Notes under the pieces: model-generated
Database searches by the model: none
Told to the model about the DNA's origin: nothing
The model's input: only the letters and a program-made list of their open reading frames with translations
In this document: positions 14,413 through 31,866 of the stretch, piece by piece
How the letters are laid out: every line of letters starts with the position of its first letter
How positions within the stretch are numbered: the first letter of the stretch is position 1
Position numbers and translations under genes: made by a program
NCBI RefSeq assembly: GCF_002001165.1
Contig: NZ_MUNQ01000005.1
Coordinates: 496,001-560,000, forward strand
DNA length: 64,000 nt
Direction of reading: 5' to 3'
Origin: Rhodanobacter sp. C05
GTDB lineage: Bacteria > Pseudomonadota > Gammaproteobacteria > Xanthomonadales > Rhodanobacteraceae

Positions 14413-14454
14413 AAATGGCGCACGCTTACCTGCTTGCGCACTCGTGTCGGCACC

Positions 14455-14493
14455 CATTAACCGTGTCGCTGTCACCCTAAACCTTGTCATTGG
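14455..14493 (+). repeat. Two tandem copies of an island-edge motif
   Basis: CATTAACCGTGTCGCTG and CCTAAACCTTGTCATTGG lie 21 bp apart. They resemble the CTTAACCCTGTCG motif arrays near 25.0 kb and 27.5 kb and mark the left boundary of the lower-GC island. Confidence 0.5.
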
Positions 14494-14530
14494 CACCTAA
14501 CTCTGGCGATACCTTTCGAGTGGGGGACTC

Positions 14531-15085
14531 ATGAAGGAACAATGGACACGAATCGAGGCATTCTTAGGAGCGCACGGATGTCACGACCAAGTCGGCCTTA
14601 GGTCAGGGGCATCAGACGACCAGATTCAATCCTTAGAAGCTCATCTTGGGGTGAATTTTCCCGATAGCTTGAAAGGGTTTTTATCGGTTCACGACGGTCA
14701 GAACGGGCGAGCCGGACTCGTCAGTGGCCAACAGCTTTTGTCCGCCGAAAACATCCGCAGGGAATGGGACGTGTGGCGCTCGTTGGATGAGGCAGCGATG
14801 AATGCCGACTGCGCCGACTTCATGGCGTCGCATCCAAATGGGGCCATAAAGCCGATGTATACGAATCGCTTCTGGATACCGTTGACGAAGGACTGGGGCG
14901 GCAACCACATTGGACTGGACTTCGATCCTGATGCGCAGGGGACGGTTGGTCAGGTAATCCGTTTTGGTCGAGACCAAGATACAAAGCTGTTAGTAGCCGA
15001 AGATTTCAACGCGTTCATCGAGAAGCTCGTGGTGTCGCTCTCTGACTCGAAGTGGAACGGAGAGTACCTTGAGTCCAAGATCTGA
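14531..15085 (+). CDS. SMI1/KNR4 (SUKH) family protein
   Basis: A 184-residue protein of the SUKH superfamily: N-terminal LRSGASDDQIQSLEAHLGVNFP, PDSLKGFLSVHDGQ, then WIPLTKDWGGNHIGLDFDPD and GQVIRFGRDQD, the usual order of SMI1/KNR4 motifs. In bacteria many SUKH proteins are immunity proteins against secreted or contact-dependent nuclease toxins. No toxin gene is adjacent, so it may be an orphan immunity gene. Its codon use is AT-richer than the ntrBC genes beside it. The ATG at 14531 has only a weak upstream purine stretch (GTGGGGGACTC). Confidence 0.85.
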   Translation: MKEQWTRIEAFLGAHGCHDQVGLRSGASDDQIQSLEAHLGVNFPDSLKGFLSVHDGQNGRAGLVSGQQLLSAENIRREWDVWRSLDEAAMNADCADFMASHPNGAIKPMYTNRFWIPLTKDWGGNHIGLDFDPDAQGTVGQVIRFGRDQDTKLLVAEDFNAFIEKLVVSLSDSKWNGEYLESKI

Positions 15086-15511
15086 GCGCGATGATGCAGT
15101 GTGCTGATGAGTCCGCCACCCAACCCTGTCATTCGCTTAGAAGTCGCAAATGTCCGTTTCGCGACACAAAAGCAAACGGTCGAGCCGTCAACGGGAATGA
15201 ATCAGTTCAGCGAAAATTGGACACTTCCTATTCTTGGAAAGGTGTCACTTGATTTGCTGGCCTTTGACCACCGCAACGGTTGCGATTCAAATTTATGTAA
15301 TTCTGGACGAGGCAATACTCGAATATGGGGTTGATCGACCCCGACCAGAACCAGCCTGAGGCGAATGAGTCAAGCAGCTGCCAAACCTAAACCAGTGAGA
15401 ACATCAGCAGCAGACACAGCAATAGCAAATGCTGCTTTCACCAAGACTTACTAGCTTCGAAGACCGGTTCAGCCTAGAGGAGAATGCAGCCGTGAAGCGA
15501 AGAACGAAGCT
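15086..15511 (+). other. Spacer of 426 bp, no convincing gene
   Basis: It contains one more copy of the island motif (CAACCCTGTCATTCG, 15121-15135). A short frame at 15101-15334 lacks a ribosome site and family features. Around 15366 a 29-codon ATG frame is followed by AGAGGAGA and a three-codon mini-frame just before the next gene, which could be leader translation. Nothing else is recognised. Confidence 0.5.
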
Positions 15512-16606
15512 GTGACGGCGCTGCCGTTCAATACCATATTCACCCTTGAAGCCAGAAGCCACACGCTTCTGGAGGTCATGGCAGAACACTTCAAGATGAC
15601 CGATGAACAGGTATTTCAGGATATACAGAATTCACACCGTGAGCTGTTACAGGTGCTGGCATCAAAAGGTATCCAATATCAGGACCTACGAAATGCCCTG
15701 ATTCCAACCACCAACCGAAATGAGCGCGCTTACCTGCTCAACTGGAGCAAGGTGGATACGGCCAACTATGGACGAGTGATTATCGAACATGCTCTACCGA
15801 TTTTTGACCCTCATTCAAGTCATAGCGTCCTGCTAGGAGACTGGCTTTACCACAAGGAACACAACGGCTGGGCCATCGACGAACTCCGGAAAGCTCTTGC
15901 TGGCGCGGCAGAGCCGTATACCGGGCATGGGCATGATCTCTACATCGTCTACGTCAACAACCTGTCTGATGGTCAGGCAGACGCACTGCACAGCCGCTTC
16001 CAGGAGCTGCCGGCATACGTTGGATTTCTGGACCTGACTTTTGCGTCCGTGGTGAAGTTCTACATCTCAACCATGCTAGTACGCGCATTCATCAAGCACC
16101 GGAAGTTCGTCATCCAAGGCCATGAGGATGACCGCTCGAACTCCGAAAACATCAGCATGTTGCCCTATGGGTTCGAAAAGGCGGGATATTCCCTTCGTAG
16201 CCTGCAAAGCTTGCTCTATGGGGTTTTCCTTTCCTTCAAGATTGAGCGCCCGATATTCCTGCCTCATGACACGGACACCAAATTCTCACTGCTAGCGATG
16301 GGCGCCAGCCCTGCGGAACTGGATGAATTCGAGGTAGTGCTGGATGATCGAAAGCTGCAATACCTAAAGGAAAACCATCCGGAAGGGTTAGAGCGTTCTG
16401 GATTTGAGGAGCTCTCAGCAGCAGACATCGCCGAGCAGATACGCGGCAAGGTTAAGGCGAACTACATCTACAACTTGGCCCGCTCGGAGGATGGATCAAC
16501 CATGAAATTCAACATCCTGCTTGAGAACCCTGGCGTCGCACGTTTTCTTTGTGCCCTAGAACTTCTTCCACACGACAAGCAGCTTCGGGTGATTACGTTG
16601 TTTTAG
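15512..16606 (+). CDS. Hypothetical protein of 364 residues, possible defence-island component
   Basis: I do not recognise this family. It is a soluble, mixed alpha/beta protein with no signal peptide or membrane helix. The N-terminal half is helical (HTLLEVMAEHFKMTDEQVFQ; HRELLQVLASKGIQYQDLRN). A middle segment is strand-rich and acidic (GHGHDLYIVYVNNLSDGQAD), and the C-terminal part has EELSAADIAEQIRGKVKANY. GTG 15512 is the first usable start, but its ribosome site is weak. It ends three bases from the convergent caspase-like gene, and its base composition matches that pair, so the three genes probably moved together. Confidence 0.7.
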   Translation: MTALPFNTIFTLEARSHTLLEVMAEHFKMTDEQVFQDIQNSHRELLQVLASKGIQYQDLRNALIPTTNRNERAYLLNWSKVDTANYGRVIIEHALPIFDPHSSHSVLLGDWLYHKEHNGWAIDELRKALAGAAEPYTGHGHDLYIVYVNNLSDGQADALHSRFQELPAYVGFLDLTFASVVKFYISTMLVRAFIKHRKFVIQGHEDDRSNSENISMLPYGFEKAGYSLRSLQSLLYGVFLSFKIERPIFLPHDTDTKFSLLAMGASPAELDEFEVVLDDRKLQYLKENHPEGLERSGFEELSAADIAEQIRGKVKANYIYNLARSEDGSTMKFNILLENPGVARFLCALELLPHDKQLRVITLF

Positions 16607-16609
16607 CCG

Positions 16610-17455
16610 CTAGTTGTCCGAATCAATGAAGCTTTCAAGGTCTGCCATGCTAAAGCGGCACTGCCGTCCGATGAGAAAGCGTCCGGCATATCGGTCAAGC
16701 AGGCTCTGGTCAGGTCGCAATCCATCTTTGAGCATTTTTCTAACCCGCTTGAGATTGTCAGGCGTGTCCTCCATACCCTGAGAAAGTATCTCCGTGATCA
16801 GCCGTTCCCTTCTCGCGGCTCCGCCTTTCCCCTTGCACTGCTCTTTCAGGTAGCGCGCTATGACCATGAACAACATCTTCTCGCAATGGAAGTATTTGAA
16901 CTTGTCGGAAAGGTGCCGGGAATATGCTGTGTCGATGGAGCCAAACTCAAACAGCCCTCGATAAAAGTTCGGAACATTATCTTCCAGAAACCCGACGTTG
17001 ACCTTTTCCTCCGGCGCAAGCAGCAGAAAGAAGGGCACCGCTGTTTGAAGCGAAATCGGCTTTATGGCGCGAAAGCCGAAGCAAGTTGCGCCAACAACCG
17101 CGAGGTTGTTCTGGGTATGGATGTTGATCGCTTGAAGCTTCTCAGCAAGGGTATTCCAATCAACGAACGTATCTTCGCCATCGACATAAATGCCCGCGTC
17201 CTTATTTCCGTGTGTGTCGAAATGAATGAGAGGCTTCATATTTTGATCCCTCGCATGCACGGCAAGCTCATCGAGAAGCCCCAAAAGCTTTGCCTTGCTT
17301 GAGACGGGAACGTGCTGAAAGCCGAAACCCAATTCACTGGAGTGCACAGCCATAGCATCTACCATGCGATTGGTAGGAGGCATTTCTGCACTGGGAAGGC
17401 TGCTGATCCAAATGACCGAGTTGCAGGAGAACCCGCTGTTCAATTGCGTTGGCAT
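16610..17455 (-). CDS. Caspase-fold cysteine protease-like protein
   Basis: A 281-residue protein with the hallmark His-Cys arrangement of caspase/CHAT-type (clan CD) peptidases: hydrophobic strand then HFDTHGNKDAG (His82), and about 40 residues later a second hydrophobic strand NLAVVGATCFG (Cys125). The spacing and flanking strands fit a caspase-like core. The C-terminal third (RYLKEQCKGKGGAARRERL onward) is helical and basic. It starts four bases after the stop of the Abi_C-type gene, so both form one operon. Bacterial caspase-like proteases are often abortive-infection effectors. That role here is inference from context. Confidence 0.68.
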   Translation of the reverse strand: MPTQLNSGFSCNSVIWISSLPSAEMPPTNRMVDAMAVHSSELGFGFQHVPVSSKAKLLGLLDELAVHARDQNMKPLIHFDTHGNKDAGIYVDGEDTFVDWNTLAEKLQAINIHTQNNLAVVGATCFGFRAIKPISLQTAVPFFLLLAPEEKVNVGFLEDNVPNFYRGLFEFGSIDTAYSRHLSDKFKYFHCEKMLFMVIARYLKEQCKGKGGAARRERLITEILSQGMEDTPDNLKRVRKMLKDGLRPDQSLLDRYAGRFLIGRQCRFSMADLESFIDSDN

Positions 17456-17459
17456 TGCC

Positions 17460-18254
17460 TCACCCCAGTTTCTTCACGAGATAGTTGAACAGGGTCCGCA
17501 CAGCATTGACGACCAGCAGCGCCTCATCCTCTTCCAGCAGGTTTTCATTGGCATGGGCAACGCTGGCGTGATTCCGAAGAGTGTTCAGTGCATCCACGAT
17601 GTTGCCAAACGAGTTGAGTACCTTCACCAGTTCTGCACTGTGGACACCTAAATCCTTTAGGCTGGGGTGTCCCGTTCTGAGCGTTTTCAGCAAGGTCGTG
17701 ATGGACGCATCAGTAGCAACGGCAATTCTTGCATCAGCACATGCAGACCGCAAATAGCCGTGCAACGCAGTGTGTAGGCGATCCACCGCACTAGTGGCGC
17801 CATTACTCGCCAACAGGCTCTCCGCATCAGCCAAAGCACGTCGAACAACTTCGCTGGCTGAAATCTGCGGCAGGGGCAGAGCGGGCACATGGGCATCGCT
17901 TAATCCCAACTCCGACAACACATCCAGCGCGTGCTTTTCCAGATGTGGCCGCAACTTTTGGTGCTCCACCATTTTGTACAGCGCTGTCACATCGCGACTT
18001 ACCAGGAATTCGAGAAAATCGAATACACAGCTTCCGTAGTCTTCGTCCTGCCAGCTAAGGCTACGAAGTAGCCGCTTGTGGCTCCTGATGAAGTCCTGGT
18101 GGCCCGTGGCATAGCCGAACTCTTTCCAATCGTGTTCCTGAAAATTTTCCACGATTGCCTTTTGCAGGGCTATCAGCACTCTGCTGCGAAACTTGCTATC
18201 GAAGTGCATTTGGTCCATCAGACCCGCTCGCCCATGGAGACATTCAGTGCGCAT
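17460..18254 (-). CDS. Abortive-infection family protein with Abi_C-like C-terminal domain
   Basis: A 264-residue protein. The N-terminal part (HDWKEFGYATGHQDFI, RSLSWQDEDYGSCVFDFLEF) resembles the AbiJ N-terminal-domain type. The C-terminal part (LKVLNSFGNIVDALNTLRNHASVAHA, then EEDEALLVVNAVRTLFNYLV) matches the Abi_C pattern (PF14355), with its conserved LRN-x-H region also seen in HEPN-like RNases. It is the first gene of an operon with the caspase-like gene, which suggests sensor plus protease effector. The start is uncertain: ATG 18254 is used, and an ATG at 18218 is also possible. Confidence 0.72.
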   Translation of the reverse strand: MRTECLHGRAGLMDQMHFDSKFRSRVLIALQKAIVENFQEHDWKEFGYATGHQDFIRSHKRLLRSLSWQDEDYGSCVFDFLEFLVSRDVTALYKMVEHQKLRPHLEKHALDVLSELGLSDAHVPALPLPQISASEVVRRALADAESLLASNGATSAVDRLHTALHGYLRSACADARIAVATDASITTLLKTLRTGHPSLKDLGVHSAELVKVLNSFGNIVDALNTLRNHASVAHANENLLEEDEALLVVNAVRTLFNYLVKKLG

Positions 18255-18518
18255 TATCGCCGAATCCCTATTCTTCCCCGACGGCCGCGCTTCGGACGAT
18301 GTCCGTTATTTGGCAATTACTGGCAATTCGAACGGTCGATGCGAGCGACGGCAACTGGCCGATAGCGACCGTGCCTCGTGTCGCTACCGTGGACTTCAAA
18401 TCGGAGGACTTGAACGCGATGCTCTGCCGACTAACCTACAAAGTGCTGCTATGAATAGCATCCGCTGGTTACACTAAATTAATTCGCATCTATCGATGTG
18501 TCATCGATAGATGCAGCT
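18255..18518. other. Gene-free stretch upstream of the Abi_C/caspase operon
   Basis: About 260 bp with no supported gene. It must contain the promoter for the minus-strand Abi_C/caspase operon. A short palindrome AGCTGCATCTATCGATGACA/TGTCATCGATAGATGCAG-like sequence (ATCTATCGATGTGTCATCGATAGAT, centre near 18500) could end the small gene at 18519. Confidence 0.45.
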
Positions 18519-18725
18519 CTACCTTGAATTGAAAAGTCCATTCCCAATCGCCTGGTTGTACTGCGTATCGGTGAATCCAGGACACCGGCGACGAAGTTCA
18601 GCAACAAGACCTGATCTCCCAACTGCGGGAGGTTCGTTGGGATCGGACACGTGATTCCACTTCCCATCACGTATCTCCACCGCGAAGTCGTAGCCGACTT
18701 GCATAAGCTTTTCTATATTCTCCAC
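18519..18725 (-). CDS. Small hypothetical protein, 68 residues
   Basis: The frame is supported by GTG at 18725 with GAGGGAGAG eight bases upstream. The product is soluble with ordinary composition (VGYDFAVEIRDGKWNHVSDP; LVAELRRRCPGFTDTQYNQA). No family is recognised. It lies alone between the Abi_C/caspase operon and the NAD cluster, on the same strand as both. It could also be the fragment of a larger lost gene. Confidence 0.5.
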   Translation of the reverse strand: MENIEKLMQVGYDFAVEIRDGKWNHVSDPNEPPAVGRSGLVAELRRRCPGFTDTQYNQAIGNGLFNSR

Positions 18726-18837
18726 TCTGCAAACTCTCCCTCTTGGCCGCTGCACTCATCTCAAGTCGTGATTTAACATCGGCTCATTGCCATCAGTGCC
18801 CTATGGGCCGAATAGGGATGCCCCCGACTCTCAGCTA

Positions 18838-19776
18838 TCAATTCACCAACTGCCCAAACCTGTCGGCAAGGCTAATCGTGGCCGTCATACCGGCATTGAA
18901 CTCCAGGAAGTCAGCTTCGATGCCATCACTGAAGATCACGCCGTAACCCGCCATCTGCGACACAAGCCGCAAGGGTTGCTTGCGCGTAACCTGCCCAAAC
19001 ACCATCTCCACCTGGGTCACGCGACTGGGAAACGGCTCTCGCACCGTGAATTGCAAATGGTCGGTATCCCATGCAAACCCGTGCTCGCGCAAGGCCTGCG
19101 CAGGGCCCTCCAGCTTATGGCCAAGGATGCCAGCGGCACCCGCCAGTAGGCTCTGAAACCATCCTGTTGAACCCAGTCCTGTCGATACGATCAGTCCACT
19201 CGACGAATGCGTCTCCGACCGATCACCCTGCTGGATCTTGTAACGCGCTGATACGTGCGACCGAGGTCCGATGAAGAGGTCGTTGACAGCATGCAGCTCC
19301 TGCCCGTCACTCAACGTCGCCCGCGCCATCGTGACGCGATTAAGCGGCCGCTTCTTGGCGATCGCCTCGGGCGTGATCGCCACGAGGTCGTTGACCTCAA
19401 AGGGCAGGAGCACACCATCCCATCGCGCGGGATCCGGATTGACCCCGATGACCGGCTGCGCACCCTTGAGGTACTTGAGCGTGTTGGCCACCAAGCCATC
19501 CTGCCCCAGCACCACGACCAAGGCATCCGGCGCGAAGAGGTAATTCGACAGGAAACCGCGGTCCAGCCGCTGCACCCGGCCGAAGCGACCCAAGGTCGCC
19601 TCCGCCGTCTGCACCGCGCTTAGATAGACCCGATGCTCGGCCTCATAGTCCGAAAAGTCCGCACCCAGATGCTCGACGTAGAAGCGCGCCTGTTCGATCG
19701 TGTTGAAACGCACGATCAACTCCTCCAGCCGCGTCTTGCGAGTCACCAGCACGATTCGCTGGTTTAGCGCATCCAT
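18838..19776 (-). CDS. NAD-kinase-like protein
   Basis: A 312-residue protein with the ATP-NAD kinase fold. The usual GGDG motif appears as GQDGLVANTLKYL, and the second conserved motif (normally TPTGSTAY) as VSTGLGSTGWFQSLL. GVNPDPARWDGVLLPF corresponds to the region where NAD kinases carry NxGxxGFL. The first-Gly change and an altered substrate loop mean it may phosphorylate NAD differently or only bind it. It starts four bases after the SPFH gene and is the last gene of an operon that also encodes a NadM-Nudix enzyme, so the whole unit is centred on NAD(P). Confidence 0.78.
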   Translation of the reverse strand: MDALNQRIVLVTRKTRLEELIVRFNTIEQARFYVEHLGADFSDYEAEHRVYLSAVQTAEATLGRFGRVQRLDRGFLSNYLFAPDALVVVLGQDGLVANTLKYLKGAQPVIGVNPDPARWDGVLLPFEVNDLVAITPEAIAKKRPLNRVTMARATLSDGQELHAVNDLFIGPRSHVSARYKIQQGDRSETHSSSGLIVSTGLGSTGWFQSLLAGAAGILGHKLEGPAQALREHGFAWDTDHLQFTVREPFPSRVTQVEMVFGQVTRKQPLRLVSQMAGYGVIFSDGIEADFLEFNAGMTATISLADRFGQLVN

Positions 19777-19780
19777 GGCG

Positions 19781-20812
19781 TCAGGCCTTGGCCGGTAACT
19801 TGGCTCGCGGCTGCGTCAGCTGCTGCAACAGATCTGGCGAGATGTTGAGTTCGCCAATCCTTCCAGCGCCTTCAGCCAGTCCTTGGAAGGCCTGTGCAAT
19901 CAACACGCTCGGATCAGCCTGACCCACCATCAGAGCCTGGAGCACCTTCGGGTCGATACCTTGTACGGCTTTCATGGTGGCCGCTACCGCATAGGCCTTG
20001 GCATCGGCTTCGGTCTGCGCGTTCGCGGCACGCAAGGAGGTCAGGCTCTTGTTCTTGTCTTCCAGAGCGATGCGGCCTGCCAACTCCTGATCCTGGATCG
20101 CCTGGCGCTTGGCCAGCACGGCTTGCTCGGCTTCCAGCTGTGTTTCGCGTATCTGGCGCTTCTTGGTCTCCACCGCGATCTCAGTATTGAGCTCGTTTTC
20201 CTTGACCGCACGCTCCTGCTCGATCGCAGCATTGCGGCGTACGTACGTCGCATCGTCAGCCTGTTTGAGGATCTGCTCACGGACCTGGGCTTCGAGCGCA
20301 CGCGCCGTTTCCGGATTGGGTTTCACCGCAAGAACCGACAGGTTGACCAGTTCGAGCCCAAGGCTCGAGAGGCCGTCGGCGCGCTGCAGGCCCTGGCGCA
20401 CGACCTGGACCAGGTGATCGGAACCGCGCAGCAGCTCCTGAAGCGTTTGACCCTGCAGCACCGAACGCAACTGCACCTGTACGGCGTTGACCACTCGCTG
20501 CGGCAACTTGGTCCGGTCTTCCGAGGCATAGGTGCCATCGGGCTTGAGCGTGAAGTTCATCAGGCTCGCGAGGGTGGTCGGCGCGGACACGCGATAAGTG
20601 ACCTGTCCCTGCACGGTCACGACCTGAAAGTCGCTGCTGACTTCCTGAAACATGAAGGGGGCATCCACGCTCTCCAGCGGGATCGAGACCAGCGTGGCGC
20701 TGGGCGCGAAGTACCAGAACGTGAGGCCGGTGCCTTCGCGCACGGCTTTACCGTTCTTGTACTGGATGACGTAGGTGCTGGGACTGGCTTTGACGTAACG
20801 ATAACCGAGCAT
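19781..20812 (-). CDS. SPFH/Band 7 domain protein
   Basis: A 343-residue protein with an N-terminal SPFH (prohibitin/flotillin) domain: YVIQYKNGKAVREGTGLTFW, SSDFQVVTVQGQVTYRV and LVNLSVLAVKPNPETARALE. A long, highly charged coiled coil follows (about residues 190-290, NAAIEQERAVKENELNTEIA and following). No N-terminal membrane helix is obvious, so it may be a cytoplasmic scaffold or associate peripherally. GGGGGAT about ten bases upstream supports the start. It sits in an operon with NadM-Nudix, a 53-residue protein and an NAD-kinase-like protein. Confidence 0.85.
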   Translation of the reverse strand: MLGYRYVKASPSTYVIQYKNGKAVREGTGLTFWYFAPSATLVSIPLESVDAPFMFQEVSSDFQVVTVQGQVTYRVSAPTTLASLMNFTLKPDGTYASEDRTKLPQRVVNAVQVQLRSVLQGQTLQELLRGSDHLVQVVRQGLQRADGLSSLGLELVNLSVLAVKPNPETARALEAQVREQILKQADDATYVRRNAAIEQERAVKENELNTEIAVETKKRQIRETQLEAEQAVLAKRQAIQDQELAGRIALEDKNKSLTSLRAANAQTEADAKAYAVAATMKAVQGIDPKVLQALMVGQADPSVLIAQAFQGLAEGAGRIGELNISPDLLQQLTQPRAKLPAKA

Positions 20813-20828
20813 GATCGTATCCCCCTGG

Positions 20829-20990
20829 TTAGATGAGCTGGTTGCGCGCGCGAACCTTGGTGAAGGTCCGAGCGCGAATGAGTGTTCCGTTCTCCCACAC
20901 CGTGTCCATGGCGTGCTCCCTAACCGTGGGTCGCTTCATGTCCTCGATGGCTTGGCTATTTGTGGGTATCGCTAACTTGAGTAGTTGCAT
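20829..20990 (-). CDS. Small protein of 53 residues in the NAD operon
   Basis: A short frame fits exactly between the NadM-Nudix and SPFH genes. The ATG at 20990 has GAAGGAG seven bases upstream, one of the best ribosome sites of the operon, and the stop lies 16 bases before the SPFH start. The product is basic, and its C-terminus reads WENGTLIRARTFTKVRARNQ. No family is recognised. Operon position suggests a function tied to the SPFH or NAD enzymes. Confidence 0.65.
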   Translation of the reverse strand: MQLLKLAIPTNSQAIEDMKRPTVREHAMDTVWENGTLIRARTFTKVRARNQLI

Positions 20991-21053
20991 GACGGAAGCT
21001 CCTTCGCGTCGTGGGAAACCAGCGGTCTATCCGCTGGCGGGAGAGACAAGGGT

Positions 21054-22103
21054 TCAACCTCGTCCCAGGAAAAACTCCAGAATGGCCAGATGATCCTCGA
21101 ACAGCTGGGGACCCATCTCCAGTGCTTCGCTCACCGGAAACCAGTGCGCCTTGTCGGCATCGTCGCCACCTTTCACGGCCGGCAACTCACCGGTCGGGAA
21201 GTCGAAGTGGTAGGCGTGGGTGATGGTGCGTCCGCGCTGTGACCGCTCCGGGTGATCGAAGACGTGCTGACCCTTGATCGACCCTTTGAGCACCGGCAGC
21301 GGAAGCTTGAGGCGAGTTTCTTCGCGCAACTCGCGCAGGCAGGAAGCCAGGATCGACTCATCCTGACCCACGAAGCCGCCAGGCAATGCCCATAGTCCCT
21401 TGCCTGGCTCCGCACGACGGCGAACCAGGAGGACGTGGCCCGAGTGCACCACGACGGCATCGGTGGTGACGAACGTCGGAGGATAGGGAGCGGTCGACCA
21501 GGCGGCTCGGTAGTTCTGGATGAAACGATGCTCCGCGACCAGTTGCCCATACACGGCGGCATTCTTGCGGAAGGCTTCGAGCATCTCGAAGACGGGTGCT
21601 GGTACGTTGGCTTGCAGCATGCGCAACGCACCCCGACCCGCGTCATCCGCGGCTTCGAACAGGTAGCGACGAAGCTCCGTCGCGGAAAGCGTTTCGGTAT
21701 GGGGGAGATGCACCAGAGGCCACTGCGGGAATTCCTGCAGGTAGTAGCTGCTGGCGTCTTTCTCCCGACCAATCATCCCGACGCGTGCAACCGGTTCCCC
21801 GCCATCACCTTTGACGGCTTCCGCGACGGCCCGCTGTACGGCGGCTATCCAATGAGCTTCGTTGTAGAGGTGATCGCGCAACGGCAGGACGATCAGCCGC
21901 TCGGAAACATCTTCCAGAGCAGCGCAAATCATCACCGCGCGCTCGGCGACGGTCCAAGGATTGCGCAGCGAACGGGGGGTGTCGGCAGAACCAATCAGGA
22001 AAATGAGCTTCTTCGCGTGGCCCAGCGCATGGCGGCCGACGGCCGCGTGGCCGATGTGGAAGGGCTCAAAACGGCCAATGAAGACCAGGTACTCAAAATC
22101 CAT
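21054..22103 (-). CDS. Bifunctional NMN adenylyltransferase/Nudix hydrolase (NadM-Nudix)
   Basis: A 349-residue fusion. The N-terminal nucleotidyltransferase has FIGRFEPFHIGH (the GxFxPxHxGH motif) and a late LSATELRRYLF (ISxTxxR-like motif), as in NadM, which makes NAD+ from NMN and ATP. The C-terminal Nudix domain has the box GGFVGQDESILASCLRELREETRL (GX5EX7REUXEE), and such domains often act on ADP-ribose. Start and family length agree. It is the first gene of a four-gene NAD-related operon and is divergent from the TOTE-like gene. Placement in a defence-rich island makes phage-induced NAD repair a reasonable hypothesis, not shown. Confidence 0.9.
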   Translation of the reverse strand: MDFEYLVFIGRFEPFHIGHAAVGRHALGHAKKLIFLIGSADTPRSLRNPWTVAERAVMICAALEDVSERLIVLPLRDHLYNEAHWIAAVQRAVAEAVKGDGGEPVARVGMIGREKDASSYYLQEFPQWPLVHLPHTETLSATELRRYLFEAADDAGRGALRMLQANVPAPVFEMLEAFRKNAAVYGQLVAEHRFIQNYRAAWSTAPYPPTFVTTDAVVVHSGHVLLVRRRAEPGKGLWALPGGFVGQDESILASCLRELREETRLKLPLPVLKGSIKGQHVFDHPERSQRGRTITHAYHFDFPTGELPAVKGGDDADKAHWFPVSEALEMGPQLFEDHLAILEFFLGRG

Positions 22104-22396
22104 GAGGCTCCCTCACGGTGAATGGATTCTCGGGTCTGTCCCAAGAAGTAAAGTACATGTTACGCCGACCAGTGATGCGGTCAACTGATATGAGGCCGCT
22201 GCGGAGGTGCCATGATCTGGCCAATTGCGGCGGACCCATTTGGGCAGCAACCTGCTGCACAATTCGCCAGCTCACAACATACCCCATTCCCCACGATGCG
22301 AGCGTCCGCATCGAGCTTTTTGCACTCCAAAGGGTCAGCTGGGCCGATAGACTTGCTGACATCGCAGCGAGAGATGAAAGACGAGGCGCTTTTCCG
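22104..22396. promoter_or_regulatory. Divergent region between NadM-Nudix and TOTE-like genes, with hairpin
   Basis: These 293 bp carry both promoters. A hairpin at 22241-22261 (TGGGCAGCA, loop ACC, TGCTGCACA, one mismatch) is flanked by ATT on each side. It belongs to the same family as three hairpins downstream of the TOTE-like gene. The same DNA also reads as the peptide FGQQPAAQFAS on the plus strand. No other regulator site was recognised. Confidence 0.5.
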
Positions 22397-24769
22397 ATGG
22401 CGAACAATGTGACATTAACCGCCCTCCAGACGGAAAACGCCCGACTTGTCGCACTGTTGGAAGCTCACGGCGTTGAATGGCGCTTGCCGGCAGTGCCAAA
22501 GCCTTCGCCTGCAACTCTCGAAGATGCTGAGCGCTTGAAACTCAGCACCGCTGAGAAAGTGAGGCTCTTCCGCCGCCTGTTTCAAGGACGTACCGATGTC
22601 TATCCCGTCCGTTGGGCGAGCAAGTCCACCGGCAAGGCAGGGTACTCGCCAGCCTGCGGCAACGAATGGCACCCTGGCGTCTGTCAAAAGCCGCGCATCA
22701 AATGTTCGGATTGCAGCCATCGATTGCTTCTTCCGCTATCGGATGCTGTTCTCTATGACCATCTGGCAGGAAAGCATACGGCGGGTGTCTATCCGCTGAT
22801 GTCCGACGACACCTGTCACTTCCTGGCAGCGGATTTCGATGAGGCCGAATGGAAAGAGGACGTCTTGGCCTTTGCACGGTCCTGCCGTGACCTTGGCGTT
22901 CCTGTCGCACTTGAGATCTCCCGCTCGGGCGACGGGGCCCATGCGTGGGTGTTCTTTGCCAGTCGTGTATCTGCCCGTGATGCCCGGCGACTCGGTGTCG
23001 CCCTCATCAGCCACACCTGCGCTCGCACCCGCCAGTTGAAGCTGACTTCCTATGATCGCCTATTCCCCAATCAAGACACGATGCCCAAGGGTGGATTCGG
23101 AAACCTGATCGCACTGCCCCTGCAAAAGGAGCCTCGCGAAAATGGCTGCAGTGTGTTCGTCGACGACATGCTGCGCCCCCACCCAGATCAGTGGGCTTTC
23201 CTGGCCTCGTTGCAGCCCATGCCAGCGCACGATATCGAGCCCACCATCCTTCGCGCCACGGGTGGAGCGCATCCGCTGGATGTAACTTTCATTGATGAGG
23301 AAGATCACAAGGAGCCGTGGAAGCACTCCTCACCTTCGAGCAACAAGCTGGTCGGGGCCATGCCGAAGTCACTCACGGTCATACTGGCCAATCTCATCTA
23401 CTTCGAGAAGGCGAGGCTTCCACAACCTCTTGCCAACCGCCTGATCCGTCTGGCCGCTTTCCAGAATCCTGAGTTTTACAAGGCGCAGGCGATGCGTTTC
23501 GCCGTATGGGACAAGCCCCGCATCATTGGCTGCGCCGAGAACTACCCCAACCACATCGCGTTACCGCGCGGTTGCCTGGACGCCATCAAGGAGCTACTGG
23601 AGCTCAACGGCATCGTGTGCCATGTGCGAGATGAACGCTACGAAGGGCAGCCCGTCGAAGTGAGTTTCGCCGGCACGCTGCGCGATGATCAGGAAGCCGC
23701 GGTGGTCGCAATGTTGCATTACGATACTGGGGTACTGTGTGCACCCACGGCCTTCGGCAAGACGGTGGCCGCGGCAGCCATGATCGCCAGACGAGGCGTC
23801 AATACGCTGGTGCTCGTTCATCGCACCGAACTGCTCAAGCAATGGCAGGAGCGCCTCCAGTCTTTTCTGGGCGTCGGCAAAGGCGTGGTTGGCACCATCG
23901 GCGGCGGCAAGGCCAAGCCAACGGGAAAGATTGATATTGCCGTGATTCAATCTCTGTCGCGACAGGGCGAAATCAACTCACTGGTCGAGAACTACGGACA
24001 CGTCATCATTGATGAATGTCACCATGTCGGCGCTGTATCGTTCGACGCCATCCTGAAACGAGTCAAGGCAAAATTTGTGCTTGGCCTGACCGCTACGCCA
24101 ATACGCCGTGATGGCCAGCAACCGATCGTCTTCATGCAGTGCGGGCCGACCCGTTACACCGCCGCCCAGCCATCGAGCGCGCCGCACGATCTGGAAGTTG
24201 TGGCGCACACTTTGGGCACATCCATCGACCTGCCCCAGGAAGCCGGCATTCAAGACGTCTTCCGTCATCTCATCCATGACCCCGCGCGCACAACCGCGGT
24301 CGCCGATGCTGTACGGGACGCGTTCAATCAGGGACGCAAGGTACTTGTACTGACCGAGCGTACCGAACATCTCGATGCCTTGGCCACCGCACTCCTCGGC
24401 AAAGTGCCCACTCCGTTCGTCCTCCACGGACGCATGCCAAAGAAGCAGCGTGCCAAGGTGATCCAGGAACTCGATGAGCTGCCACCTGATCTAGCGCGGA
24501 TTCTTCTCGCCACAGGAAAGCTGGTTGGCGAAGGCTTCGACCATCCACCGCTTGATACGCTGGTGCTAGCGATGCCGATCTCATGGAGAGGGACACTTCA
24601 GCAGTATGCCGGCCGCCTGCATCGTGAGCACGCATCCAAGACCGATGTCCGCGTCATCGACTTCGTAGACACAGGCCACCCAGCGCTGTTGCGGATGTGG
24701 GACAAGAGGCAACGCGGCTATCGCGCTATGGGTTATCAGATGGCTAAACCTCACATGGGAATGTCGTAG
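22397..24769 (+). CDS. TOTE conflict-system-type primase-helicase
   Basis: A 790-residue protein. A Cys/His cluster comes first (C87, H92, C96, C103, C106). An archaeo-eukaryotic-primase-like domain follows, with the metal motif AADFDEAEW (D146, D148) and the SGDGAHAWVFF motif (H182). A superfamily 2 helicase domain has Walker A APTAFGKT (449-456), DECHH (539-543), TATP (565-568) and the motif VI QQYAGRLHR. This primase-plus-SF2 order is that of the TOTE conflict systems found in mobile and defence contexts. No nuclease domain is seen after the helicase. ATG 22397 was chosen because it gives a clean N-terminus after AAAGACGAGG. Confidence 0.85.
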   Translation: MANNVTLTALQTENARLVALLEAHGVEWRLPAVPKPSPATLEDAERLKLSTAEKVRLFRRLFQGRTDVYPVRWASKSTGKAGYSPACGNEWHPGVCQKPRIKCSDCSHRLLLPLSDAVLYDHLAGKHTAGVYPLMSDDTCHFLAADFDEAEWKEDVLAFARSCRDLGVPVALEISRSGDGAHAWVFFASRVSARDARRLGVALISHTCARTRQLKLTSYDRLFPNQDTMPKGGFGNLIALPLQKEPRENGCSVFVDDMLRPHPDQWAFLASLQPMPAHDIEPTILRATGGAHPLDVTFIDEEDHKEPWKHSSPSSNKLVGAMPKSLTVILANLIYFEKARLPQPLANRLIRLAAFQNPEFYKAQAMRFAVWDKPRIIGCAENYPNHIALPRGCLDAIKELLELNGIVCHVRDERYEGQPVEVSFAGTLRDDQEAAVVAMLHYDTGVLCAPTAFGKTVAAAAMIARRGVNTLVLVHRTELLKQWQERLQSFLGVGKGVVGTIGGGKAKPTGKIDIAVIQSLSRQGEINSLVENYGHVIIDECHHVGAVSFDAILKRVKAKFVLGLTATPIRRDGQQPIVFMQCGPTRYTAAQPSSAPHDLEVVAHTLGTSIDLPQEAGIQDVFRHLIHDPARTTAVADAVRDAFNQGRKVLVLTERTEHLDALATALLGKVPTPFVLHGRMPKKQRAKVIQELDELPPDLARILLATGKLVGEGFDHPPLDTLVLAMPISWRGTLQQYAGRLHREHASKTDVRVIDFVDTGHPALLRMWDKRQRGYRAMGYQMAKPHMGMS

Positions 24770-24814
24770 CCAACTGGATGGGCAGGCCATCACAGAGATG
24801 CCGTGATCCGGCTA

Positions 24815-24958
24815 ATGGCGATTGGTCAACAACCCGTTGACCAATTTGCGCAACAGGCTGTTGCACAAATTGCCGCCTCCTACGGCGGCAGGCTAGATGG
24901 AGATCCCTTCGCCAGCAATTTGATGACTCAATTGTCCAGCAGCCTGTTGGACAATTAG
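24815..24958 (+). CDS. Possible 47-residue protein overlapping a hairpin array
   Basis: A 48-codon frame starts at ATG 24815 and ends in TAG. Its product is Gln/Ala-rich and amphipathic (GQQPVDQFAQQAVAQIAAS, then NLMTQLSSSLLDN). It spans almost exactly the stretch that forms four hairpins, so the sequence may be constrained as RNA or DNA rather than protein. A similar peptide (FGQQPAAQFAS) is encoded upstream of the TOTE-like gene. There is no strong ribosome site, so coding is uncertain. Confidence 0.4.
   Translation: MAIGQQPVDQFAQQAVAQIAASYGGRLDGDPFASNLMTQLSSSLLDN
24821..24956 (+). repeat. Array of four hairpins downstream of the TOTE-like gene
   Basis: Hairpin 1 is 24821-24845 (ATTGGTCAAC, loop AACCC). 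Hairpin 2 is 24843-24871 (13-bp arms with one mismatch, loop GGC). Hairpin 3 is 24871-24890 (TGCCGCC/GGCGGCA). Hairpin 4 is 24930-24956 (AATTGTCCAGCA, loop GCC). Hairpins 1, 2 and 4 share the form AATT-N-G-NN-CARCA-loop-TGTTG and differ in paired positions, which looks like covariation. Confidence 0.7.
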
Positions 24959-24984
24959 ATCCTCTGAATGAGGTCGTAACTGGT

Positions 24985-25032
24985 CACTTAAACCTGTCAC
25001 TACGTGGACGAAGTTTACCTAACCCCGTCGCT
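24985..25032 (+). repeat. Tandem island motif, left of AbiE
   Basis: CACTTAAACCTGTCAC (24985-25000) and ACCTAACCCCGTCGCT (25017-25032) are two copies of the same motif about 31 bp apart. The second overlaps the stop codon of abiEii. Confidence 0.6.
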
Positions 25033-25901
25033 CATGCCTCCCAAGGCAACTCTTCATAGTAGGCACGGACAACCGAGTAGCACTGATCAAAAGCCGGGAG
25101 TATGCCCTCGTCGAGCTCGTTGGCTAGCGATGGGTATTCTTTGCGAGCCCGCTCGATTACCTCGGGATTGGCAATGGCATTTTGCGTCACATCAACGCCC
25201 CGGTCCTCTGCTTTCATTCGAAGTACTTCGAGAACTTCGAGGCGGCATTCGTCACTCCGCAAGTCGTAGTTGGATAGCAGAAAGTACAAATCGAAAACGT
25301 CCTGACGACGCGCCCGGTCACGACTCACCTGTTGGAGCATCGCGCGGTATTTCTCCGCGATTAGGGTTGTTAGTGCATAAACACGCAGTAAGCCATCACT
25401 TCCTACTTGGAAGATATCCTTTGTTGGTACACGCTCATCGAAGCTGTAGTCCATTTGGACAGCACGCCGAGCCTGGTTTCGCATGAGGTTCTTATGATCG
25501 CGGCTACCTCGCTTCGCGTATCCGATGCTTACTTTCAGATTGATCCAGAAATGCGTGAATGTCTCCTTAGGTTTGGGGTCTGGTTTTGCGGACTGGATTT
25601 TGCAATCAAGTTCATACCCTAGCCGGTCTACAGCTTCGGCCAACCCCCGGCTCAACCGTTTGACGAGATGGTCTGCTTCTTCCTGTGACCAACCCTTTGG
25701 GGTCGAGAAGTCTATGTCCTGCGTGTATCGAGGACTGTGGTAGCGGAGTGCAAGCAAAATCCCGCCCTTCATGAAGCTCATATCTGCGAGCTCACCGTCA
25801 GCTGCCATGGCACTCACAATTGTATGGATCGCTTGCCGGAACTGAAGCTCCGTTTCAGTTTTGGAAGCTCCAACCCAGCTGATTAGGTCAACGTTAGACA
25901 T
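25032..25901 (-). CDS. abiEii: AbiEii-type nucleotidyltransferase toxin
   Basis: A 289-residue nucleotidyltransferase-like toxin of the type IV AbiE system. The N-terminal core has FMKGGILLALRYHSPRYTQDIDFST, with the KGG and T-x-DID metal motif (residues 44-64) typical of AbiEii/MenT proteins. The middle contains the helical RVYALTTLIAEKYRAMLQQV and RRQDVFDLYFLL segments typical of the family. The product stalls growth by modifying RNA or nucleotides and protects the population from phage. Its start overlaps the upstream antitoxin stop by eight bases, showing operon coupling. Confidence 0.88.
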   Translation of the reverse strand: MSNVDLISWVGASKTETELQFRQAIHTIVSAMAADGELADMSFMKGGILLALRYHSPRYTQDIDFSTPKGWSQEEADHLVKRLSRGLAEAVDRLGYELDCKIQSAKPDPKPKETFTHFWINLKVSIGYAKRGSRDHKNLMRNQARRAVQMDYSFDERVPTKDIFQVGSDGLLRVYALTTLIAEKYRAMLQQVSRDRARRQDVFDLYFLLSNYDLRSDECRLEVLEVLRMKAEDRGVDVTQNAIANPEVIERARKEYPSLANELDEGILPAFDQCYSVVRAYYEELPWEA

Positions 25902-26817
25902 TGGTAGAGATCATCCAGCGGTCCGAAAACGAAGGCATGTACTCTTTCTCAGGATCCAAACGTCTCGACCCCCCTCGTTGTGCATCAATTACCCAAGCGT
26001 CGATTCGAGCATCTCGAATTCCGCAGCGCTCCTCAAGTATGTAGCCCGCGCGAACGCGGTCAATTTTTGATCCGTGCTTTTCCAGCTCGCTGAGGATGAG
26101 CGAGATATGCTCACTCGCATTCTGCTCAAAGATCTCGATGACATGGGCCATACCCCCACATAGCTCGGAGCGCCGCAGCATGTCGAGATAGGTGCGTCCT
26201 AGGGTGCTGACGCGCAACAGGCCATCTTGGGCAACCCGAAAGCCACCGCCGATCTCCTTTGTGTGCACGACATTTAAGGTCTGACCTTGAAGCTTTTCGA
26301 CCTTGTGCCGAACGAGGTTGGGAAAGTTGGCTGCTCGGAAGGCTGGGAGCTCGTCACCCAGATCACGCTCCATGCGACTGGCTGCAAGGTCCTTCCAAGC
26401 CTCAGGGGTTGGACTGGTAACGAACAGGACCTTGGGCAAGCGGTTGCTGAGTCCGTGGTAAACCATAGCGCTTAGATGCGATACGTACCCAAAGGGATCT
26501 AGAGCGCAGTAAACGACTTCGGCGTCTGGGCGGGATGTTGCTCCTGTCCTGAGGACGCTACGTGGAAGCGACTTGTCTTCTAAGAGTGCGCCACGCGCAA
26601 TCAACGTTCGCCGCACCGAAAATAGGTCTGAGCGCATTGCGATTCGACGTGCTAAGCGCAGCTCGCGGCCTTCAACCTGCCCATCGGTAACCACGCGAAA
26701 CACCAAGCGCGCCAAGTCATAGCCGGAAATTACCGGGCCTCGTATATCGCGGCGAAGTAGCAATTCCACCGCGCTAGGCAACGGAATACGGGCAGGGACG
26801 CCCAACTTAGATTTCAT
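25894..26817 (-). CDS. abiEi: AbiEi-type antitoxin/autoregulator
   Basis: A 307-residue protein. It is the first gene of the AbiE operon and overlaps the toxin gene by eight bases. It has the AbiEi layout: a winged-helix-like N-terminal region (LFSVRRTLIARGALLEDKSL), then a domain with PDAEVVYCALDPFGYVSHLSAMVYHGL and QDGLLRVSTLGRTYLDMLRR. AbiEi proteins repress their own promoter by binding inverted repeats. Two very long palindromes (26823-26865 and 26938-26982) lie just upstream, so autoregulation is strongly suggested. It is longer than the roughly 200-residue streptococcal AbiEi, as in many proteobacterial members. Confidence 0.8.
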   Translation of the reverse strand: MKSKLGVPARIPLPSAVELLLRRDIRGPVISGYDLARLVFRVVTDGQVEGRELRLARRIAMRSDLFSVRRTLIARGALLEDKSLPRSVLRTGATSRPDAEVVYCALDPFGYVSHLSAMVYHGLSNRLPKVLFVTSPTPEAWKDLAASRMERDLGDELPAFRAANFPNLVRHKVEKLQGQTLNVVHTKEIGGGFRVAQDGLLRVSTLGRTYLDMLRRSELCGGMAHVIEIFEQNASEHISLILSELEKHGSKIDRVRAGYILEERCGIRDARIDAWVIDAQRGGSRRLDPEKEYMPSFSDRWMISTNV

Positions 26818-26822
26818 TGCCT

Positions 26823-26865
26823 TAGATATACACTACGTGTCCTCAGGACACGTAGTGTATATCTA
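26823..26865. promoter_or_regulatory. 43-bp palindrome directly upstream of abiEi
   Basis: Perfect 21-bp arms surround a single central C. The core is GTGTCCTCAGGACAC, flanked by ACACTAC/GTAGTGT and TATA-rich ends. It ends five bases before the abiEi start codon, so a bound protein or the RNA hairpin would cover the ribosome site. Likely AbiEi operator 1. Confidence 0.8.
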
Positions 26866-26937
26866 GTGAATGAATTTGCGCAAGGCGAGTGACCCCGGCC
26901 TAAACATGCTACCAGCCCCTATTGCCTAGAATTCGTA

Positions 26938-26982
26938 TATCACTTACACTTTGTGTCCTAAGGACACAAAGTGTAAGTGATA
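26938..26982. promoter_or_regulatory. 45-bp palindrome, second putative AbiEi operator
   Basis: Perfect 22-bp arms surround a central A. The core GTGTCCTAAGGACAC is identical to the first palindrome apart from its centre, and outer parts are similar (TTACACTTT/AAAGTGTAA). The centres of the two palindromes are 116 bp apart. It is probably the distal operator of the AbiE promoter. Confidence 0.75.
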
Positions 26983-27113
26983 GTCTACTTTTACTGGGTG
27001 AAGCATAGCGAGCCCAAGGCCGTGGCTACCGCGCCGCTATCAGCCTCTTCAGGTCATTCTGTAGCTTGCCGTCTCGCCTGGTGATGAAGCACATGCGGCA
27101 GGTAATTTTCTAC

Positions 27114-27150
27114 GGCCTCAGCGCCTGAGTTAAGCGGCACGCGGCTTTTC
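27114..27150 (-). repeat. Orphan attC-like half site in reverse orientation
   Basis: GCCTCAGCGCCTGAGTTAAG followed by CGGCACGCGGC matches the reverse complement of the right arm of classical integron attC sites (core, then TTAACTCAGGC read backwards). No cassette gene or second half is visible nearby, so it is a fragment. Confidence 0.45.
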
Positions 27151-27479
27151 GCGCATCCACTTCCTCATGGCTACCCGCTCCTCTGTGCGATGATTTCGTA
27201 AACGACTGCCACGCCAACATCTTTGATGTCCGCTTCGGTAGCGTGCGGGTCGGAATAGCCTCGATGACCTTTGACTGCGAATGATGTGTACTAAATGTTC
27301 GTCGGTACGGAACGTATTCGATGACTCAAGAGCGCCTATACAGATCAGCGGAAGTGCTGGGTCATCGTCGTCTGCTCCGACTCGTTGCTAACGACAGAAA
27401 CAGGGCCGGCTTTCGCGAGCTTCCTCACGCTGAAGCTTGCGCTTTTTTGTTAACGCTCAATCTGCTTTTCCGATTACGG

Positions 27480-27557
27480 CTTAACCCCGTCGCCGGGCTA
27501 CAAAAAGTCACTTAATCATGTCGCTGGTCGTCAAAAGTTACTTAACCCTGTCGATGG
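27480..27557 (+). repeat. Three tandem island motifs, right of AbiE
   Basis: CTTAACCCCGTCGCCGG (27480), CTTAATCATGTCGCTGG (27511) and CTTAACCCTGTCGATGG (27541) repeat with a 30-31 bp period, separated by CAAAAAGTCA/CAAAAGTTA. An inverted copy (CGACAGGGTTAAG) lies at 27620-27632. Multiple short repeats with regular spacing are typical of transposase-bound ends. No transposase gene is present. Confidence 0.65.
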
Positions 27558-27666
27558 CAATCTCGCCCCGCGTGTGTGCGCCAAGCTAAGCTCATGATTT
27601 ATCTTCGCTTCTGACCGAACGACAGGGTTAAGCAACGCCGACACGAATCCCACTTGGACAGAGCTT

Positions 27667-27696
27667 CAAAGTCTGTAACTTCTTGTACAGACTTTG
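27667..27696. repeat. Inverted repeat with 11-bp arms
   Basis: CAAAGTCTGTA and TACAGACTTTG surround eight bases. It lies in a gene-free stretch between the island motif array and the minus-strand gene ending at 27807. It might be an operator or a weak terminator. Confidence 0.5.
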
Positions 27697-27806
27697 GCGC
27701 CATCCTTGGCGCACATGCTTTATGGCGGCCTTTGCTAACTCGGGGGGTCAATCAACTCCTGAGCACTGTCGCCCGAACGACGGTCCGGTCTTGCATCGCC
27801 AAGCGA

Positions 27807-28295
27807 TCAGAGATCCGCGCCGCTGAAGGCGAACCAGCGGCCGTCGTGGAAGGTGTAGCCGTCGACGAAATGCACCTCCTTCGGATTGCCCGCCTTGTCC
27901 GTCGTCTTGAGGATGGAATGGGCCGTCGCGGAATCTCCGTGGATCACGACGATGGTCTCGAGCTTCGGGACCTCGCGTGCGTCGTCGGCAACCTGTGGGA
28001 CGCGATCGATCACGTCCTGCCGCGAGCGGACGAGACCGGATCGGCTGGAGGTCTGGTAGTCAGGCTCCAGCAGGCACGCCAGATATTCCCGGTGGCCGTG
28101 GTATTCCGCGGTCAGCCAAGCCTGCTCGATCCGCTGGATCGTCGAGGCATCGCGTTTTTGATCGGGCGTGGCAATCCCGGCGCATGCCGCCGCGGACAGG
28201 TCCGCGGCGCGGGCCTGGAAGACGAAAGCGGAAAGGATCATGGCGCCGGCGAGCGCACTGAGGACGGTACGACTAAGCAGGGGCGAGCGAAGCAT
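27807..28295 (-). CDS. Exported NTF2-like (DUF4440-type) protein
   Basis: A 162-residue protein with a clear signal peptide (LSALAGAMILSAFVFQARAA, cleavage after about residue 28). The NTF2-like domain follows: RIEQAWLTAEYHGHREYLACLL, then a VVIHGDSATAHSIL strand and a C-terminal VHFVDGYTFHDGRWFAFSG. The start at 28295 is fixed by AAGGAGA. It would act in the periplasm; the ligand is unknown. It resembles the protein at 61622-62122 in layout. It is divergent from the DesK/NarX-like two-component genes, which might regulate it. Confidence 0.8.
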   Translation of the reverse strand: MLRSPLLSRTVLSALAGAMILSAFVFQARAADLSAAACAGIATPDQKRDASTIQRIEQAWLTAEYHGHREYLACLLEPDYQTSSRSGLVRSRQDVIDRVPQVADDAREVPKLETIVVIHGDSATAHSILKTTDKAGNPKEVHFVDGYTFHDGRWFAFSGADL

Positions 28296-28428
28296 CGTTG
28301 TCTCCTTGGTTGATGGTCGACTCAGGATTGGGCAGATCTGCCCCGCCCGATAAGTGAGTGCTGTCATGCCCGCTGCCCATGACAAGCGTCATGGGACAGG
28401 ATCGTGCCCGAGAGTTAAGGTCGGCCTT

Positions 28429-29595
28429 ATGCCCTGGCCGCGCACATCTCTGGATCGCATCCGTCTGCTCGTCCAGGCCGCGTGCGTTCTGATGCTGGCG
28501 GCGGCCGGCGGATTGGCCCTCGTGACCCGCCTGCTGCGACCGGAAACCTTTGCTGCCCATCCGCACTGGGACCTCCAGTGGACGGCCGCCTATGGCGTGC
28601 TGGTCGCGGCCTATGTCGCGGCCGAGCTGGACGGGAGCCCGGGCCTGACACCGCGCAAGGCCGCCCTGTTCTTCCTCGAGGGTTTCGCCGCGCAATACCT
28701 GGTCTGGCTCTACCCGAGCTTCCTGGTGACGAGCATGATCGTCGTGATCGCCTGGCAGGTGGCCTGGATCGCTTCCCTGCGCACGGCGCTGCTGGCGGCC
28801 GCCGCCTTGGCCGCGGCCCTGGTCGCCCAGAAGTGCGCCGTCGGCGGACAAGGCATGTCGGCGGTGATCCTGGTCTCGAGCTGCGGCTTTCAGCTCTTCG
28901 CCATCAGTGCCGCCCACCTTGCCCGCAGCGAGGCCGCAGCGCACGAGCGCCTGGCCCGCGCAAACGCGGAGCTGACCGCCGCCCAGGCCCTGCTGACCGA
29001 GAGCGCCCGCATGGGCGAGCGGCTGCGCATTTCGCGCGATCTGCACGATGTGCTGGGCCACCATCTCACCAGCTTGCACGTGCACCTCGATGTGGCCGCA
29101 CGACTGGCGCAGGGCCAGTCGGCGTCCCACCTCGGCCAGGCGCGCGAAATCGCCGGCGAGCTGTTGGCCGAAGTCCGCAAGGTGGTGAGGCAGGTACGCG
29201 TCCAGCCCGTGGACTTGCAGGCGACCCTGCTGGCATTGGCCGAAGGGGCAGCCGACCTCGACGTTCGGCTCGTCCTGCCCGAAGCACTCGGTGCACTGGA
29301 CGCGCCTCGGGCGGACGCCCTTTTGCGGTGCGTGCAGGAGCTGATCACCAATACCCGGCGGCACGCTGGCGCACGTCAGCTCCGGATAGAGCTCGCGCAG
29401 GCTCCCAACGGGGAGGTCCGGCTGACGGCCAAGGACGATGGCGTCGGAGCAGACGCAGACGTCGCCGAGGGCCAGGGCCTGGCCGGCATGCGCGAACGGT
29501 TTGAGGCCCTGGGCGGCTGGCTGGCGGTGTTCAGCCACAGCGGCGAAGGCTTCCAGGTCAGCGGCGCGATTCCGCCCGTGGGCGCGCGGCCGTGA
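28429..29595 (+). CDS. Sensor histidine kinase, DesK/NarL-partner type (HisKA_3)
   Basis: A 388-residue membrane kinase. The N-terminal region has about five or six hydrophobic segments (for example LLVQAACVLMLAAAGGLAL, SFLVTSMIVVIAWQVAWIA). The HisKA_3 motif SRDLHDVLGHHLTSLHVHLD contains the phospho-acceptor His. The HATPase part has CVQELITNTRRHAGA and a G box near KDDGVGADADVAEGQGLAGM. ATG 28429 has AAGG eight bases upstream. The last codons overlap the regulator start as GTGA, so the two are coupled. The signal is unknown. Confidence 0.9.
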   Translation: MPWPRTSLDRIRLLVQAACVLMLAAAGGLALVTRLLRPETFAAHPHWDLQWTAAYGVLVAAYVAAELDGSPGLTPRKAALFFLEGFAAQYLVWLYPSFLVTSMIVVIAWQVAWIASLRTALLAAAALAAALVAQKCAVGGQGMSAVILVSSCGFQLFAISAAHLARSEAAAHERLARANAELTAAQALLTESARMGERLRISRDLHDVLGHHLTSLHVHLDVAARLAQGQSASHLGQAREIAGELLAEVRKVVRQVRVQPVDLQATLLALAEGAADLDVRLVLPEALGALDAPRADALLRCVQELITNTRRHAGARQLRIELAQAPNGEVRLTAKDDGVGADADVAEGQGLAGMRERFEALGGWLAVFSHSGEGFQVSGAIPPVGARP

Positions 29596-30230: not shown

Positions 30231-30527
30231 TCAGACTCGGTGACGCTCGAAGCTATCGCCCAAAGCAGCTCGTCTTATGGGGCACCAAAGTGCACAGACT
30301 TTGCGGTTCTGTCCATGTGGATGATCAAGACACCCATGTTTGCAGCAAGTGCTGCAGACATGGGGCTTCGCTCACCACCTCAAACATTGGTGTTCATGTG
30401 CCAGAAAACATGGTTTTTGGGATGGCGCCCCCGCAAAGCGCCATATCTGCATTCCTGCCTAAACAAAGCCACGACGCTGTAACGTGCCGTCCACAAGATG
30501 CGAGGCATTCCGTCAAGGGTTGCCTGC
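30231..30527. other. Gene-free stretch before the DUF5690 transporter
   Basis: About 300 bp without a supported gene. It must contain the promoter for the transporter. GTGCACAGACTTTGCGG near 30291 resembles the arm of the inverted repeat at 27667-27696. No TGTCTAG operator of the type seen at the other phosphonate promoters was found here. Confidence 0.5.
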
Positions 30528-31829: not shown

Positions 31830-31866
31830 AGGTCGTTGCATCGAAAGTCAGAGGCTGCAACTGATG

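Follow-up and report, generated by a model that had tools for sequence, protein, structure and literature searches.

Which of the three tightly packed genes between positions 15512 and 18254 of the Rhodanobacter sp. C05 DNA analyzed here (contig NZ_MUNQ01000005.1; the whole stretch of 64,000 nucleotides is hereinafter the window) belong together? An earlier interpretation made without database searches (hereinafter the sequence-only reading) took G1 (15512..16606, plus strand), G2 (16610..17455, minus strand) and G3 (17460..18254, minus strand) for one undescribed defense module that combines an Abi-type sensor with a protease effector. All three reading frames are confirmed: G1, with a GTG start, encodes a 364-amino acid protein without an assigned family, G2 a 281-amino acid predicted cysteine protease of the caspase fold, and G3 a 264-amino acid AbiJ protein. 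The packing is indeed tight, with 3 bases between the convergent, tail-to-tail G1 and G2, and 4 bases between the G3 stop codon and the G2 ATG. The caspase-like fold and the defense island setting stand up to the analysis, whereas the three-gene module does not. The interpretation we favor, while giving it somewhat less than an even chance, is that the genes comprise two neighboring anti-phage units, namely a G3-G2 pair that would cut both RNA and protein, and the separate, convergent G1.

A predicted caspase-fold protease encoded behind an AbiJ gene

The structure model of G2 adopts a caspase-like fold. In this fold, a His-Gly motif follows the third core strand and a Cys follows the fourth one; correspondingly, H82-G83 of G2 is located after the strand 75-81 and C125 after the strand 119-122. 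His82 (codon at 17210-17212, minus strand) and Cys125 (17081-17083, minus strand), correctly singled out as a caspase-type arrangement by the sequence-only reading, are invariant in 40 of the 40 rows of an alignment that consists of the query and 39 of the 88 homologs detected at E≤1e-3 in a protein-database search (identity is down to 35% in the most distant row), and G83 is present in 39 rows. Judging from these residues and the model, G2 is likely to be a protease acting through His82 and Cys125. A second invariant His-Cys, H190-C191 (40/40 rows), is located at the last core strand. Neither Pfam nor NCBIfam nor PADLOC has a name for the sequence family: the Pfam scan of G2 yielded no families, so that there is no assignment to Peptidase_C14 or CHAT, and Peptidase_C14 is touched by only one of the 40 members (E 0.024). 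Residues 60-277 match phrog_38219 of the PHROGs database (E 8.4e-23), a family of viral proteins for which no function is described.

The product of G3 combines an N-terminal AbiJ domain (AbiJ_NTD5, residues 22-102, E 9.7e-25) with an AbiJ/Abi_C HEPN domain (residues 195-260, E 1.6e-15), both above the Pfam cut-offs, and additionally matches AbiJ in PADLOC (E 9.6e-7), in agreement with the Abi_C-type assignment of the sequence-only reading. The protein-database search yielded 405 homologs at E≤1e-3, of which 120 are listed; in an alignment of the query with 39 of these 120, R227, N228, S231 and H234 are invariant in all 40 rows. The HEPN RNase motif (R-x4-6-H) is thus present in every row as R227-x6-H234 (codons at 17574-17576 and 17553-17555, minus strand). 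The true start of G3 may lie 12 codons downstream because the closest entries among the matches listed are 252 amino acids long. About 230 bases upstream of G3, an inverted repeat of 14 pairs (18485-18515, minus strand) precedes a T-rich tail on the same strand.

According to Anantharaman et al. 2013 (PMC3710099), AbiJ is a HEPN family with a conserved motif that is fused to five N-terminal domains including NTD5; the authors propose that these domains either bind targets of viral origin or keep the toxin in check, with the HEPN domain cutting RNA, and mention AbiJ operons with restriction-modification genes. The notion of an Abi-type sensor serving a protease effector holds in part: the AbiJ N-terminal domain is a proposed sensor, but, with the HEPN RNase motif located in the Abi_C part, G3 is a predicted effector as well, rather than a sensor alone.

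At the G3-G2 junction (17453..17466, minus strand), the order is GGGG, TGA (the G3 stop), ggca and ATG (the G2 start), with the ribosome-site-like GGGG at the end of G3, 7 bases before the G2 ATG. If the two genes form a unit, the AbiJ N-terminal domain of G3 would, by analogy with the published AbiJ proposal, detect a phage component, after which the HEPN domain, given its motif, would cut RNA. The junction suggests coupled translation of G3 and G2 from one message; G2 would be activated in the same cell and, as its predicted fold implies, cut host or phage proteins via His82 and Cys125. The infected cell would be killed or stalled as a result.

Comparison with known systems

Caspase-like immune proteases are already known in bacteria. 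One parallel is type IV Thoeris, where a caspase-like protease (Rousset et al. 2025, as cited in PMC12847820) has a TIR protein as its operon partner. G2 similarly is a caspase-like protein in an operon with a potential activator, but the partner is an AbiJ gene, and a scan of eight window proteins detected no match to TIR, so that the TIR gene characteristic of the type IV Thoeris operon was not found here. In the SAVED-CHAT effector of the cyclic oligonucleotide-based antiphage signaling system (CBASS; PDB 8tl0), chain residues 305-505 align with residues 11-195 of G2 at 12% identity; the fold match is confined to this part, and no SAVED domain or any other Pfam family was found in the 281-amino acid G2. 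The EACC1-caspase and EAD-caspase systems (Kaur et al. 2020, 2021; PMC7159879 and PMC8195603) likewise include caspase-like peptidases in conflict operons, and one G2 relative is followed by a TRADD-N-associated gene (see below); G2 differs in that it is a protein of one domain that stands on its own, and the Pfam scan detected no domain in it. With the AbiJ family, G3 shares NTD5 as well as Abi_C, including the invariant R-x6-H pair of HEPN; the difference is the caspase-fold gene 4 bases behind it, and the word 'caspase' is absent from the text of PMC3710099. In the open-access literature searched, no paper combines AbiJ, HEPN and caspase; subscription papers are outside this scope, and a published account of the family is possible.

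Distribution of the three genes

The 24 places with a G2 relative outside the Rhodanobacter sp. C05 genome include all 14 loci from a G2 profile scan of contigs from 84,980 species genomes, 5 plasmid loci (5 of 20 records, the other 15 being from Klebsiella), 3 weak matches among 197 relatives, and 2 matches in one of 369 class genomes. Among the 197 relatives, a strong G2 match is found only in the genome of origin, the three weak ones being in the family. The 7 G1 loci come from 2 of 2 viral contigs and 5 of 5 plasmid records, one 39-residue hit having been dropped. The 12 G3 loci, several of them partial or distant, represent 3 of 120 plasmid records, 3 of 4 genomes from a second search and 6 of 10 matches from a further one; L076, with no match at E≤1e-5, was dropped. 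At least one flank is under 1.6 kilobases (kb) in L004, L009, L010, L013, L014, L031, L041 and L074. In the loci read, with these short flanks, the co-occurrence of the 364-amino acid protein gene with the other two genes, expected under the sequence-only reading, was not observed: G1 is found at 0 of 24 G2 places and 0 of 12 G3 loci, and neither G2 nor G3 at any of the 7 G1 loci.

Several observations weigh against the G3-G2 pair as well. G3 is present at 0 of the 24 G2 places and G2 at 0 of the 12 G3 loci, including L089 (genome G090), which is the closest among the G3 relatives read in the family and has no G2 beside it. Many G2 relatives lack a tight partner altogether (e.g., L002, L003 and L021), and the 10 of 24 G2 places with defense or conflict families nearby (detailed below) make up a count without a background rate. 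A simple scan upstream of G3 found no promoter-like site (1 found in the region against 3.0 expected by chance). Finally, the longest contig is 6221 bases for both P0091, a G1 homolog (90%), and P0006, a G2 homolog (86%); when the lengths are shifted, the number of such coincidences expected by chance is 0.045 for contigs above 5 kb but 0.68 if all lengths are included. This coincidence hints that G2 is linked to G1 rather than to G3.

Because the G3-G2 pair is seen nowhere else, the strongest rival explanation is that G2 and G3 are independent solo defense genes, each with its own trigger, that are packed 4 bases apart in an island. AbiJ_NTD5-Abi_C proteins are indeed common alone, as indicated by the 405 homologs and by loci such as L024, L025 and L089. 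The short gap and the ribosome-site-like GGGG within the end of G3 argue against this explanation, as do the G2 relatives located right after other Abi or sensor genes (L008 and L009); we regard it as quite possible, at a probability of roughly one in three. A further alternative is that G2 is a regulator that cuts G3 or a bound inhibitor, switching the RNase on or off, with G3 as the sole effector. The operon order is compatible with such a role, and caspase-like proteolytic activation has been proposed for other bacterial conflict systems (PMC7159879 and PMC8195603). Nevertheless, this appears improbable given that the relatives of each gene occur without the other (0/24 and 0/12), so neither G2 nor G3 needs the other in general.

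Neighbors of the G2 relatives

Neighbors were scanned at 15 of the 24 G2 places, hand-picked, and at none of L002, L004, L013, L014, L021, L031, L032, L033 and L041. In L009, a NACHT gene (Avs3a in PADLOC) is 57 bases upstream of the G2 relative; in L020 (R. tropici), a TRADD-N-associated transmembrane gene is 71 bases downstream; and in L008, putAbiC is directly upstream. A NACHT gene lies ~290 bases downstream in L006, which also has a Cap4 match below the cut-off, and Dsr1 ~295 bases downstream in L011. At larger distances, there are mREase_IV (1.3 kb, L077), Hp2 (1.7 kb, L007), PDC-S28 (1.8 kb, L001), a SMODS cyclase and a patatin (1.8 kb and more, L023), and AAA genes with TmtA (within ~3.5 kb, L012). 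No defense neighbor was counted in L003, L005, L010, L022 and L029 when scanned (SUKH is 1.3 kb away in L003, and the helicase hits in L005 are weak).

These associations allow for a broader, rather doubtful proposal, with perhaps one chance in four of being right, namely that G2 founds a family of free-standing caspase-fold immune proteases shared by unrelated alarms: AbiJ in the window and putAbiC, Avs3-like or other NACHT, SIR2/Dsr1 and TRADD-N-associated membrane genes elsewhere.

Distant G2 relatives (~25%) are also encoded by Klebsiella plasmids (16 records, most of them 109-117 kb). In one of these (L022:7890-8843), the G2 relative has a replication gene on one side and a metallophosphoesterase gene on the other, and RepB, nrdA and nrdB are present as well, a combination reminiscent of phage-plasmids. 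In Rhizobium sp. CCGE532 (L029:4407-5901), a reverse transcriptase with a weak match to a group II intron maturase abuts the G2 relative. It was rejected as a partner and looks like an insertion or truncation because the G2 frame at this locus is without the first part found in L020.

G1, a separate convergent gene

As the sequence-only reading had it, the G1 product is not assignable: scans of Pfam, PADLOC, NCBIfam and PHROGs assigned it to no family. The protein-database search yielded 96 homologs at E≤1e-3. Its structure model is confident (predicted local distance difference test score 90.7, predicted template modeling score 0.90) and has no match at E≤1e-3 in the PDB or BFVD. The structural leads are weak, namely a ferredoxin-like core at residues 67-178 and a C-terminal stretch resembling one chain of a contact-dependent toxin-immunity complex. 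Among others, G109, D110, N149, N150, K182, K243, E245, D255, Y318 and T362 are invariant in 42 of 42 rows, a pattern that might point to an enzyme.

Of 45 genomes of the genus, only the genome of origin contains G1. Three Burkholderiaceae plasmids, from Burkholderia stagnalis, B. savannae and Robbsia andropogonis, have only one segment in common (E≤1e-10) over the 17-kb stretches compared. This segment is 2.34-2.36 kb long and 96.9-99.5% identical, and contains DUF5677 and G1 (L018:6927-9278, L019:6937-9281 and L027:6928-9277); on some plasmids, the two genes thus seem to travel together as a unit. On a Pseudomonas aeruginosa plasmid (L017), G1 is adjacent to DUF3322, ATP-binding, DUF4194 and DUF3375 genes, a set that we take to be Wadjet. 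Another G1 relative (L016:9989-11080) directly follows a primase-helicase gene with Zn-ribbon, Toprim and D5 domains, presumably of the P4 type characteristic of satellites, and in a viral contig (L015:9092-10168), one is flanked by a Mu-like I gene and a virion-morphogenesis gene and encoded on the strand opposite to theirs, an arrangement typical of an accessory gene. A Mu F-like protein encoded nearby in the latter contig contains a PBECR2 nuclease domain.

Because the relatives of G1 reside in DNA of phages, satellite-type elements and plasmids, unaccompanied by G2 and G3, G1 would act alone or with other partners. Being convergent, it does not share a transcript with the other two genes; it resembles an accessory gene in its own right, probably with an immune function, and most likely belongs to a unit separate from G2 and G3. 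The single three-gene module, for which the tight packing and the shared 6221-base contig value could be invoked, was rejected on the co-occurrence counts (0/24, 0/7 and 0/12) and is very improbable, given that no other locus read contains two of the three genes and that G1 travels with DUF5677 on three plasmids and occurs without G2 and G3 in the Mu-like and primase-helicase contigs.

Genomic setting

The three genes are located in a strain-specific region of 31.3 kb between ntrB and glnA (14417..45748, no strand; gene names by eye), as determined by comparison with the ntrB loci of 19 relatives (larger stretches for 4). The distance from ntrB to glnA is 0.3-1.0 kb in G014, G034 and G007 as opposed to 31.3 kb in the window; in the other 16 of the 19 relatives, there is no glnA match inside the fetched flank, so either the site is variable or the flank is too short. 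The lower GC content noticed in the sequence-only reading is confirmed, at 0.51-0.53 in the 15-19 kb interval compared to 0.63-0.68 at 7-14 kb. The neighbors it named are matched as well: a SUKH (SMI1/KNR4) gene upstream of G1 (14531..15085, plus strand), a TOTE primase with helicase (22118..24769, plus strand), AbiEii (25032-25901, minus strand) and AbiEi (25894-26817, minus strand). The region contains these together with G1-G3 and, from ~28 kb on, genes of ordinary GC content; a defense island setting for G1-G3 is supported. Right of G3 (18838-22103, minus strand), there are an unassigned gene for a 312-amino acid protein (by eye NAD kinase-like) and Band_7 and CTP_transf_like-NUDIX genes, possibly an NAD-linked set. 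The right half of the region (~28-45.7 kb) contains genes that by eye resemble a phosphonate (C-P lyase) set.

Implications

The first interpretation of this locus has to be corrected in that the gene for the 364-amino acid protein is most likely part of a different unit, which on some plasmids includes DUF5677. For the remaining two genes, the AbiJ-caspase operon would represent a two-armed suicide system: with G2 next to a HEPN RNase, a single alarm would destroy both RNA and proteins. If the broader proposal on the G2 family is true, bacteria would possess a common protease 'executioner' that is called on by different sensors. Should G2 be active and serve several sensors, it would provide a compact, testable model of a caspase-like executioner wired to different alarms.
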